From contig JAMOOX010000111.1 in the NCBI GenBank assembly GCA_027065045.1, forward strand, positions 1 to 35,396: a DNA stretch of 35,396 bases, in the 5' to 3' direction. The notes below the pieces were generated by a model. It saw only the letters and a list, made by a program, of their open reading frames with translations, had not been told where the DNA came from and made no database searches. The stretch comes from Campylobacteraceae bacterium (GTDB lineage Bacteria; Campylobacterota; Campylobacteria; Campylobacterales; Sulfurovaceae). Below are positions 5,897 through 30,832 of the stretch, in pieces. The stretch's first letter is position 1; every line of letters begins with the position of its first letter. Position numbers and translations under genes: made by a program.

Positions 5897-8470
5897 TTAA
5901 CTTATATTTACCACAAACTCCCCATTAACCACATCAAACTCTACTCTACTTCCCTCTACTACCTTATCTTCTAAGATTAAATCAGCTAATCTATCCTCTA
6001 TCTCTTCATATAATGCTCTTTTTAGTGGTCTTGCTCCATACACTGGGTCAAATCCTTTTTGGGCTATATACTCTTTGGCATTTTGAGTTAAGCTAAGTTC
6101 TATATCTCTCTCACTTAATTTATCTTGAATTGATTTAAATAGAATATCTACTATCTCTGTAATTGCTTCTAATCCTAATGGATTAAATATTACTATATCA
6201 TCAAGACGGTTTAAAAACTCTGGCTTAAAGTAGTTTTTAAGCTCACTATTTACTACCTTTTCTCTCTCTTCTAAGTCATTTATCTCCATAATCTTATCAC
6301 TTGCGATATTTGAAGTCATAATAATAATAGTGTTTTTAAAATCAATCGTTACACCCTTATTATCTGTAAGTCTTCCATCATCAAGGACTTGAAGAAGAGT
6401 ATTAAATACATCAGGGTGAGCCTTTTCTATCTCATCAAAAAGAACCACTGAATATGGTTTTCTTCTCACTGCTTCTGTAAGTTGTCCACCCTCATCATAT
6501 CCTACATACCCAGGAGGTGCTCCTACAAGTCTTGATGCTGTATGTTTCTCCATATACTCACTCATATCAATTCTAATCAAAGCATCTTCACTATCAAATA
6601 AAAATTTAGCAAGAGATTTAGCCACCTGAGTTTTACCAACTCCAGTTGAACCCAAGAATATAAAGCTTCCTATTGGGCGATTTGTATCGCTTAACCCTGC
6701 TTTATTTCTCTTGATTGCTCTTGATATTGCTTTTAGAGCTTGATTTTGTCCTATTACACTTTGATTTAAAATTGACTCTATATTTAAGATTTTATCTTTT
6801 TGAGATTGAAGCATTTTATTAACTTCAATTCCTGTCCAACGACTTACTATTGATGCTATCATCTCTTCATCTACTGAATTTTTGAGTAGAGTACCACTTT
6901 GTAGCATCTTTTTCCATTTAGATTGAAGAGCCTCTATCTCTTTGGTTTTGGCAGGGATTGTACCATATTCTATCTCTGCTGATTTATTAAAATCTCCCTC
7001 TCTTTGAGCTTGAATTGCTACATTTTTAAGAGACTCTATCTCACTTTTAAGAGTTGCTATATCATCAAATACTTTTTTCTCCTCTTCAAACTGATTATCA
7101 AGTAGGATTTTTTTCTCTTTAAGATTTGCTAACTCCTCTTCAATTTGTGCTAATCTTTGAGAGTTTTTATCTCCATCTTCCATCAATAGAGCCGATTTTT
7201 CTACTTCAAGAGTAGTTACAGCCCTTTTTGTAATTGAAAGCTCTTTTGGTTCGCTCTCAATTTGCATTTTAAGTTCAGCCGATGCCTCATCAATCAAATC
7301 TATCGCTTTATCTGGCAAAAATCTATCACTAATATATCTATCACTTAATTTTGCCGAAGCTACTAATGCACTATCTGTAATTGTAACATTATGATGAGTT
7401 TCAAGGCGATTTTTAAGCCCTCTTAAAATCTGTAAAGCCTCATTAATTGATGGCTCATCTACTTTTACTGGTTGAAATCTTCTTTGAAGTGCTGTATCTT
7501 TTTCAAAATATTTTCTATACTCTTTGAGTGTGGTTGCTCCAATAGTTCTTAGTTCTCCCCTTGCTAAAGCAGGTTTGAGGATATTAGCTGCGTCCATACT
7601 CCCCTCACTTGCCCCTGCTCCAATAATAGTATGAATTTCATCAATAAAAAGAATTATATTATCGCTCTTTTTCACCTCATCTACAACAGCTTTTAATCTA
7701 TCTTCAAACTCTCCACGATACTTAGCCCCTGCGATAAGTCTGCTCATATCAAGAGATACTACTCTTTTATTTTGAAGTGAAAGAGGCACATCTCTATTGA
7801 CTATCATTTGAGCCAATCCCTCTACAATAGCAGTCTTACCAGTACCTGGTTCTCCTATTAATATTGGATTATTTTTGGTTTTACGAATAAGGATTTGCAT
7901 TACTCGTTGAACCTCTTCATCTCTACCAATTACTGGGTCAAGCTCTCCATCAATCGCTTTTTGATTTAGGTCAATTCCATATTTTTCTAGTGCTTCTAGT
8001 GTATCATCTCCAGTTTGAGAATCTATTGATTTACCACCTCTAATAGCTTCTAAGTTTTTTCTAAACTCACTAATATCTAAATATTTCTCAAATACCTCTC
8101 TAAAAAAACTCTCTGTTGAATTGGCAATTAGCCAACTATCAACGGCCAAAAAGCTATCCCCATTAGCACTCATTACACCCTCACCACTCTCTAATGATTT
8201 GATTAGGTTATGAGATAGTTTGATATTATCTTTGGTTACTGATGAGACTGATGAGAATTTTGAAGCCAAACTTTTGGTTTCTAGTTCTATTGCACTCTTA
8301 TCTATATTCATCTTATTTAATACTTGATTAAGTATTGATTGTGAATTTGTTAAAAGCCCCCAAATAAGATGTAATGGCTGAACCTCTTGATTTTTATTAT
8401 GTAGAGCCAATGAAAGTGCTGATTCAATGCTATCTCTCATTTGATTAGTTAATTTTTCTAAAATATTCAT
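5897..8470 (-). CDS. clpB: ATP-dependent disaggregase ClpB
   Basis: ClpB is the Hsp100 ring ATPase that, with DnaK, pulls proteins out of aggregates. All parts are present in 857 residues: N-terminal Clp repeat domain (1-145), first AAA+ domain with Walker A GEPGTGKT (206-213) and Walker B ILFIDEIH, a long coiled-coil middle domain (about 400-520, rich in E/K/L) that separates ClpB from ClpA/ClpC, second AAA+ domain with GSTGVGKT (near 600) and [16 protein letters not shown], and a C-terminal D2-small domain. No ClpP-binding loop is expected. It is transcribed alone from a strong promoter at 8504-8533 that overlaps an inverted repeat, consistent with stress control. AAGGA lies 8-12 bases ahead of the ATG. 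Confidence 0.98.
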
Positions 8471-8503
8471 ATTAATATCCTTTTAAATTATATTTATAGG
8501 AGT

Positions 8504-8533
8504 ATTATATCAAGTTTAGTCTATACTTGTCAA
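8504..8533 (-). promoter_or_regulatory. clpB promoter, near-consensus sigma-70 type
   Basis: On the minus strand a perfect TTGACA (-35, plus-strand 8533-8528) and a perfect TATAAT (-10, 8509-8504) are separated by 18 bases. The predicted transcript would start near 8497 and leave a leader of about 27 bases before the clpB ATG at 8470. Both boxes match the full consensus, unusual in this phylum, where a -35 box is commonly absent. Such a strong promoter would need a repressor to be heat-regulated. Confidence 0.75.
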
Positions 8534-8535
8534 GT
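8511..8535. promoter_or_regulatory. Candidate operator inside the clpB promoter
   Basis: Three half-sites are arranged as CAAGT (8511-8515), nine bases, ACTTG (8525-8529), one base, CAAGT (8531-8535). The first pair spans the spacer between the clpB -10 and -35 boxes, and the second pair overlaps the -35 box. This geometry suits a dimeric repressor. It matches neither the HrcA CIRCE element nor the HspR HAIR consensus, so the regulator is unknown. Confidence 0.45.
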
Positions 8536-8660
8536 TAGTTATATTAAATTAGTTATAGTTGAGATATTTTAATAGATTAGGGTAGTATAGTACTCTAATA
8601 CTTATTATAAAGCATCTTTGTCTGTTTCGCCTGTTCTTATTCTTATTACACGCTCAAATA

Positions 8661-8678
8661 TAGCGTAATATCACGCTA
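8661..8678. repeat. Perfect 6-bp inverted repeat (hairpin) before the Fic remnant
   Basis: TAGCGT (8661-8666) and ACGCTA (8673-8678) are exact reverse complements around a 6-base loop. There is no U-tract after it on either strand, so it is a poor terminator candidate. It lies just ahead of the Fic-family remnant and could be part of its former control region or a trace of insertion. Confidence 0.4.
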
Positions 8679-8679
8679 A

Positions 8680-9063
8680 TGGATTTGGCAACATAGTGAA
8701 TATCCAAATTTTAAATATAAAAAAATAGAATTAGAAGATATATTAAAAGATTTAGAGTATAAACGAGGTATGCTTGATGGTACTTCAAAATTTTTTAATG
8801 ATAATGATATTAAAAATATATTGGTTAAAATGGCATTTAGAGATATTAAGTAATGCTATGAATATAGCAAATGCTAATATTAGATATATTATACAAAAAA
8901 CAAAATTTTTAAGTGTGGTTTAAATACCAAAAAATATACGGCAATTACTAAAAAAAGTAAAGCAACCACAGTACGAGATATTCAAGAACTTGTAGCATTA
9001 AGATGTATAAAACAGATTGAGGGAAGTAGTGGTCGTAATGTTAGATATAAAATTATATTATAA
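8680..9063 (+). pseudogene. Decayed Fic-family (DUF4172 + Fic) gene, core domain deleted
   Basis: Three pieces of one protein family are visible in order. Frame 8680-8853 reads WIWQHSEYPNFKYKKIELED and onward through KRGMLDG, the start of a DUF4172 domain that precedes many Fic domains. A short shifted piece (8858-8922) reads MNIANANIRYIIQKTKF, like the helix near the end of the Fic domain. Frame 8917-9063 reads GLNTKKYTAITKKSKATTVR then DIQELV...GRNVRYKI, the C-terminal winged-helix part. The central Fic motif HPFxxGNGR, which carries AMP transfer, is absent, and the pieces are broken by stops and a frameshift. A deletion of some 200 residues plus frameshift explains this. Not functional as Fic. 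The family call is from recalled domain patterns. Confidence 0.75.
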
Positions 9064-30024: not shown

Positions 30025-30832
30025 TACATATAACGAACTAACAATTACAATCCCACCTCAAATGGTAGAGTTTGTAGCTGATTATGTATCAAATATATTT
30101 CATGATGGTATTGAGATGGGAAGTGATAATATTATTATTAGAAGCGAAAAAGATATTAGTTATATCAAAGATGGAGTAGAGGCTTTGCTTCATCAATTAG
30201 ATGATAATATGAAATTCTCATTTCAAGAAGAGATTAAAAAAAATGAGGATTGGATAGGGGTATATCAAGATAGTGTAGAACCTGTTGTGGTGGGTAGTTT
30301 TTATGTTAAGCCTAGTTGGTATGAAGATAGAGAGGATAAGCTAAATATTCAAATAGACCCAGCTTTGGCATTTGGTTCAGGGCATCATCCAACTACTTTT
30401 AGTTGTTTGGAGTTTATAGAGAAGTATATAAAAGCAGGGGATAAGGTTTTAGATGTAGGTTGTGGTAGTGGTGTATTAGGACTTGCTTGTGCTAAACTTG
30501 GGGCAGATGTTGATTTATGTGATACAGACCCAATTTCAGTGGAGAGTACAATAGAGAATTTTGAACTAAATAAGAGTAGTTATAATGATATATGGGAGGG
30601 GTCTGTATATAAGAGAAAATCTCAATATGATATGGTAATTGCTAATATTATAGCAGATGTTTTGAAATTAATATCCAAAGATATAGTAAAAGCTACAAAA
30701 GATAATGGTATAATGATACTTTCAGGAATTTTAGATAAAAAGGAAGAGTTAGTACTTAAATCATTTAAAGATTATGAACTAATTGATAGAAAGTTAAAAG
30801 GTGAGTGGGTAACACTCGTATATAAAAAATAG
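30017..30832 (+). CDS. prmA: Ribosomal protein L11 methyltransferase
   Basis: PrmA trimethylates ribosomal protein L11. The 271-residue protein has an N-terminal substrate-recognition domain (1-95), then the class I SAM-binding core: [11 protein letters not shown] (118-127), motif [13 protein letters not shown] (144-155), the acidic LCDTDPIS and motif [13 protein letters not shown], where PrmA has N in place of D. Full length. Starts inside the end of TOPRIM2 (8-base overlap). The prmA-ftsH order is also found in C. jejuni, so the gene lies in its ancestral neighbourhood. Confidence 0.95.

Follow-up and report, generated by a model that had tools for sequence, protein, structure and literature searches.

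The window, that is the whole stretch of 35,396 nucleotides that was analysed, carries on its minus strand a gene for the ATP-dependent disaggregase ClpB, the product of which has the NCBIfam family TIGR03346 (ClpB) as its best match, with 1160.9 bits just below the cut-off of 1232.1. The gene is preceded by a likely ribosome binding site and by a promoter in which TTGACA (8533-8528) and TATAAT (8509-8504) are separated by a spacer of 18 bases on the minus strand. The features of the locus are as follows.

5897..8470, minus strand: clpB, ATP-dependent disaggregase ClpB, 857 aa (profile match and open reading frame)
8476..8483, minus strand: likely ribosome binding site AAAGGATA (read from the sequence)
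8504..8509, minus strand: -10 box TATAAT (promoter pattern match)
8528..8533, minus strand: -35 box TTGACA, within the left arm of the HAIR-like operator
8514..8534, minus strand: HAIR-like candidate HspR operator CTTGACA-AGTATAG-ACTAAAC, 21 bp, with a core common to three heat-shock promoters and to relatives
8511..8535, plus strand: CAAGT-N9-ACTTG-N-CAAGT string, overlapping the operator and not conserved

The first-pass annotation had reported a TTGACA-18-TATAAT promoter upstream of clpB (minus strand, 8533-8504), and its letters were confirmed. With up to two mismatches this promoter pattern occurs in the window at chance level (16 matches versus 16.6 in shuffles), and the clpB promoter is the only one of the 16 with zero mismatches. 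The half-sites described in the same annotation are likewise present on the plus strand, with CAAGT at 8511-8515, ACTTG at 8525-8529 after nine bases and a further CAAGT at 8531-8535 after one base, and their coordinates bear out that they cover the -35 box. The candidate operator at 8534-8514 spans the -35 box of the clpB promoter and extends over part of its spacer. No match was obtained when plasmid records were queried with positions 8400-8700 of the window.

A HAIR-like element at heat-shock promoters

The HAIR consensus of Streptomyces, as quoted in the available text of PMC7464140, is CTTGAGT-N7-ACTCAAG. The window site resembles this consensus in having two 7-base arms 7 bases apart and in retaining CTTGA and ACT.AA, but differs from it at the end of the left arm, which reads CA instead of GT, and in the right arm, which reads ACTAAAC instead of ACTCAAG. 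It agrees with the consensus at 10 of 14 positions, a score that 8 other places in the window reach and 3 surpass, and the HAIR consensus score alone was discarded as uninformative in this AT-rich window. The low standing of the site on this score may explain why the first-pass annotation dismissed HAIR as not fitting, a statement contradicted by the fit in the other register, CTTGACA-N7-ACTAAAC (8534-8514). The HAIR-like element at clpB emerges only when the site is compared with others of the genome and with those of relatives. The same annotation had also set aside CIRCE, the HrcA system, and in this it was right. CIRCE is also a repressor operator at heat-shock promoters, but TTAGCACTC-N9-GAGTGCTAA gave no match with up to three mismatches in the window, and the best place in the clpB upstream reached 10 of 18 positions. 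HrcA (PF01628) was found in none of the five genus genomes, a count in which a divergent HrcA could be missed because the control genomes with a match include no Campylobacterota.

The exact core CTTGA-N8-GACTAAA is present in four copies in the 2,060,903 bases of the window's own genome, compared to about 0.47 expected. Three of these copies lie in the promoters of cbpA-hspR, grpE-dnaK and clpB (grpE was named by the NCBIfam GrpE profile and the DnaK-like open reading frame following it was recognised by reading), and the fourth lies within an open reading frame. All three promoters carry a perfect TTGACA-18-TATAAT, and at all three the gap between CTTGA and GACTAAA is 8 bases and the spacer between the -35 and -10 boxes is 18 bases. 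On the cbpA promoter, however, the element is placed 4 bp further upstream than on the clpB and grpE promoters, and this shift at constant gap and spacer indicates that the element is a unit of its own rather than a by-product of the -35 box. Operator and promoter are thus separate, overlapping units. The cbpA site matches HAIR at 11 of 14 positions; when scored with a matrix trained on the clpB upstreams of genus g4 it reached only 3.6, compared to 20.0 for the clpB site of the same genome, and the kinship of the two sites therefore rests on their shared core. At up to two mismatches the core merged into the genomic background (242 matches versus 281 for the reversed control), and no exact copy was found at groES in the five genus genomes.

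Within the genus the element precedes clpB in all five genomes. The clpB upstreams of the other four share ACTTGACA-N6-GACTAAA and TATAATAC with the window and do so without the CAAGT-N9-ACTTG arrangement; read in register, the genus form is CTTGACA-N7-ACTAAAG, and the window has ACTAAAC. In the family set clpB was matched in 137 of 150 genomes, and 130 upstreams were scored after exclusion of G011, G076, G092, G100 and G104 (upstreams not retrieved) and of G058 and G137 (fragments). When no more than a single mismatch was allowed, the core was found in 86 of these 130 upstreams versus 5 of 2600 mononucleotide-shuffled ones. TTGACA is perfect in 85 of the 86 core-bearing upstreams, and TATAAT follows 17 or 18 bases downstream in 84. 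The distribution of the element across genera was uneven: with the g4-trained matrix, scores above 99.9% of the null were obtained in 5/5 upstreams of g1, 10/10 of g3, 8/10 of g5, 1/2 of g7 and 14/30 of g9, and in none of the 26 upstreams of g2, g6, g10 and g11.

Similar results were obtained at the cbpA-hspR loci of named relatives, where 66 of 77 scored loci carry the core with no more than one mismatch (77 of the 80 named hspR loci were scored and 3 were not). Among the remaining 11, five have two mismatches, and in six the promoter seemingly lies at or beyond the 200-base limit. Three of the cbpA-hspR promoters in this collection (L267, L272 and L273) carry CTTGATT-N7-ACTCAAG, which agrees with HAIR at 13 of 14 positions, and on sequence grounds these sites link the divergent elements to the classical HAIR consensus.

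HspR as the candidate regulator

HspR is encoded in the window's own genome directly behind cbpA (L025/L035, 123 aa), and the protein passes the curated model NF047375 with 121.9 bits at a cut-off of 105. Its best identity to named relatives is 76%, and among the 80 matches listed 50 are titled Sulfurovum and 4 more Sulfurovaceae. Directly behind hspR lies a further open reading frame of 408 aa (L025, 125-1351, minus strand) that was named by reading as response-regulator/histidine-kinase-like.

The arrangement at clpB can be compared with that of Campylobacter jejuni, in which, according to the available text of PMC7464140, clpB and cbp are under HspR alone and the HspR operator overlaps the core promoter, while at the hrc promoter HspR is located upstream of the core promoter and HrcA over the core. 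The candidate operator in the window likewise overlaps the core promoter, and both organisms have HAIR-like sites with imperfect arms. The window differs from the situation described in that text in that its left arm contains a perfect -35 TTGACA, and the grpE-dnaK element of the same genome differs in lying over the core promoter with no HrcA found. A literature search for an HspR operator at clpB in Campylobacterota yielded no description; the available text of PMC10696704 mentions hspR genes in metagenomes and does not contain the word HAIR.

Judged from the element shared between promoters, its fixed internal spacing, its placement on the promoters and the presence of an HspR gene in the genome, the clpB site is very probably a divergent HAIR and a putative HspR operator that overlaps the -35 box and the spacer. 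Binding by HspR, repression and release upon heat would be expected by analogy with reports for Campylobacter jejuni and Streptomyces. At normal temperature HspR would sit on CTTGACA-N7-ACTAAAC, which would occupy roughly positions -37 to -17, assuming a -10 box that ends at -7, and in doing so would occlude the -35 box and block RNA polymerase. After a heat shock HspR would be released, allowing transcription of clpB from the strong TTGACA-18-TATAAT promoter. Control through this element would also extend to cbpA-hspR, implying autoregulation, and to grpE-dnaK. Since no exact core at groES and no match to PF01628 were found in the five genus genomes, groES would need other control.

Three other readings of the site have to be weighed against HspR. 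The first-pass annotation had considered it plausible that the CAAGT/ACTTG half-sites serve an unrecognised heat-shock repressor, and indeed three exact half-sites lie over the -35 box and the complete string was found in none of 100 window shuffles. From base composition, about 6e-5 occurrences of the string would be expected in a window of this size and 0.004 in the genome, rarity figures that are post hoc, as the string was defined only after being seen. However, CAAGT-N9-ACTTG is missing from 129 of the 130 family clpB upstreams and is absent from the promoters of cbpA, grpE and groES in the window's own genome. Its frequency in the 2.06 Mb genome is at chance level, with 3 places versus about 1.9 expected. 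Contigs 25, 35 and 111 hold these places, and the two besides clpB fall within open reading frames; cbpA, grpE and groES are on contigs 96, 109 and 124. Seven letters of the three-half-site string make up CTTGACA, the conservation of which has another cause. The half-sites, found in 1/130 clpB upstreams, at chance level in the genome and at none of the other stress promoters searched, were consequently rejected as the operator, and we regard this reading as extremely improbable. The more general notion of a heat-shock repressor site stands insofar as a repressor operator on the promoter is very probable; the repressor itself is most likely the known HspR and not an unrecognised protein.

The element might instead represent the conserved core of a special class of sigma-factor promoters that involves no repressor. 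The conservation of TTGACA and TATAAT is comparable to that of the operator core, and -35 boxes are said to be weak in this phylum, which would fit such a class. Against it, CTTGA-N8-GACTAAA is shifted en bloc by 4 bp between the cbpA promoter and the clpB and grpE promoters at a constant 18-base spacer, and GACTAAA belongs to the spacer, in which a standard sigma-70 factor should require no such sequence; this reading is very improbable. Equally improbable is a HAIR-like element bound by another protein in that part of the genus from which hspR would have been lost (G001-G003). HspR was not found in the genus relatives G001, G003 and G004, the last of which is 77% complete, and G002 yielded only a weak MerR match (33%), G001-G003 being 99-100% complete; the remaining MerR proteins of the genus (L026-L029) were discounted on the basis of their length and gene neighbourhood rather than with the HspR model. 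In G001-G003 (L319, L317 and L318) cbpA is present without hspR directly behind it, and the open reading frame in this position in G001 has a weak, below-cut-off match to an Rpn nuclease/transposase family. The best G001 match of the histidine kinase (56%) is located elsewhere, with no hspR among its neighbours. Moreover, the element is kept at clpB and grpE in G001-G004, and the cbpA promoters of G001-G003 (L317-L319) carry the HAIR-like GTTGATT-N7-ACTAAAC, in which GTTGA replaces CTTGA. However, the contig ends 33 to 385 bases from cbpA, in G001 within the open reading frame behind it, and hspR may therefore be in an unassembled piece, so that loss of hspR and an assembly gap are both possible; the window's own genome does have HspR. 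Retention of the element in G001-G003, for which the fourfold-site divergence of clpB (0.21 to 0.35) was used, was dropped as proof of selection after a loss, since the whole clpB upstream is alike among the three and the persistence of the element is accordingly weak evidence.

A second palindrome at clpB and other stress genes

A strong HspR match (E below 1e-20) was obtained in 118 genomes, and at E <=0.001 the number was 121 of 150. Of the 86 genomes whose clpB upstream carries the element, 70 have a strong HspR match and 16 do not, and 34 of the 44 upstreams lacking the element come from genomes with a strong match. Whether a genome encodes HspR is therefore no predictor of the element at its clpB gene.

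In 41 of these 44 HAIR-less upstreams (for example in L192, L193 and L205) the palindrome WTGCWAYYTARRTWGCAW was found with at most three mismatches, 15 copies being exact; the corresponding figures are 0 of 86 for HAIR-type upstreams and about 1.6% for shuffled sequences. As the 44 upstreams also supplied the consensus, the count of 41 is not independent, and more independent support comes from a genome-wide pattern search and from gene contexts. Three genomes (G020, G027 and G050) have neither the HAIR-like core nor the palindrome at clpB. The arms of the palindrome are complementary in 248 of 369 arm pairs of the HAIR-less clpB upstreams. The best -10 box lies 20 bases downstream in 33 of the 41 upstreams, 21 bases in 5 and 15 bases in 3, ties having been resolved towards 20. 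A distance of 20 places the centre of the palindrome near -41.5, a position used by class II activators.

A stricter form, TGCWAYYTARRTWGCA, occurs at 69 places in 42 of the 150 genomes, and the reversed pattern at 1 place in each of 3. Gene contexts were inspected in 50 stretches (loci L343-L392) covering 52 of the 69 strict places, with Hsp20, YfdX, AMMECR1 and Crp-type domains named by Pfam, and DnaK and the CtpA-like protease by reading. The strict palindrome reads into at least one of six kinds of gene in 36 of these stretches and into none of them in 14, the genes being clpB (12), ctpA (12, divergent from clpB), hsp20 (10), yfdX (9), dnaK (4) and AMMECR1 (2). In 8 of the 50 stretches a Crp-type gene is present. 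Strict copies of TGCWAYYTARRTWGCA are absent from the window's own genome; this genome does have a Crp-type gene converging with yfdX (G000:C141:28771-30468; L110 and L111), and a copy of the palindrome with one mismatch is located upstream of this yfdX at 30451-30468.

Neighbourhood and geometry point to a Crp-type protein as a candidate binder of the palindrome. We tentatively consider, as a possibility that falls somewhat short of even, that clpB exists in two mutually exclusive states in the family (probably Sulfurovaceae), namely HspR/HAIR repression, as in the window, or activation by a hitherto undescribed Crp/Fnr-type stress regulator through WTGCWAYYTARRTWGCAW near -41.5, with whole genera being in one or the other state. 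The window's genome would then hold both systems. Literature searches for YfdX together with Hsp20 and Crp, for Crp/Fnr at heat-shock clpB and for YfdX in Sulfurovum yielded no description.

In summary, the site at clpB is a real regulatory site that was rightly sensed as a heat-shock operator and misread as that of an unknown repressor, being most likely an HspR operator. The supposed unknown repressor is thereby removed, and an HspR regulon is indicated in a group of Campylobacterota whose named relatives are mostly Sulfurovum. As no HrcA was found in the genus, HspR may run grpE-dnaK alone there. In neighbouring genera the second palindrome marks a candidate undescribed stress regulon, comprising clpB, hsp20, yfdX and dnaK, that may be under the control of a Crp-type protein.
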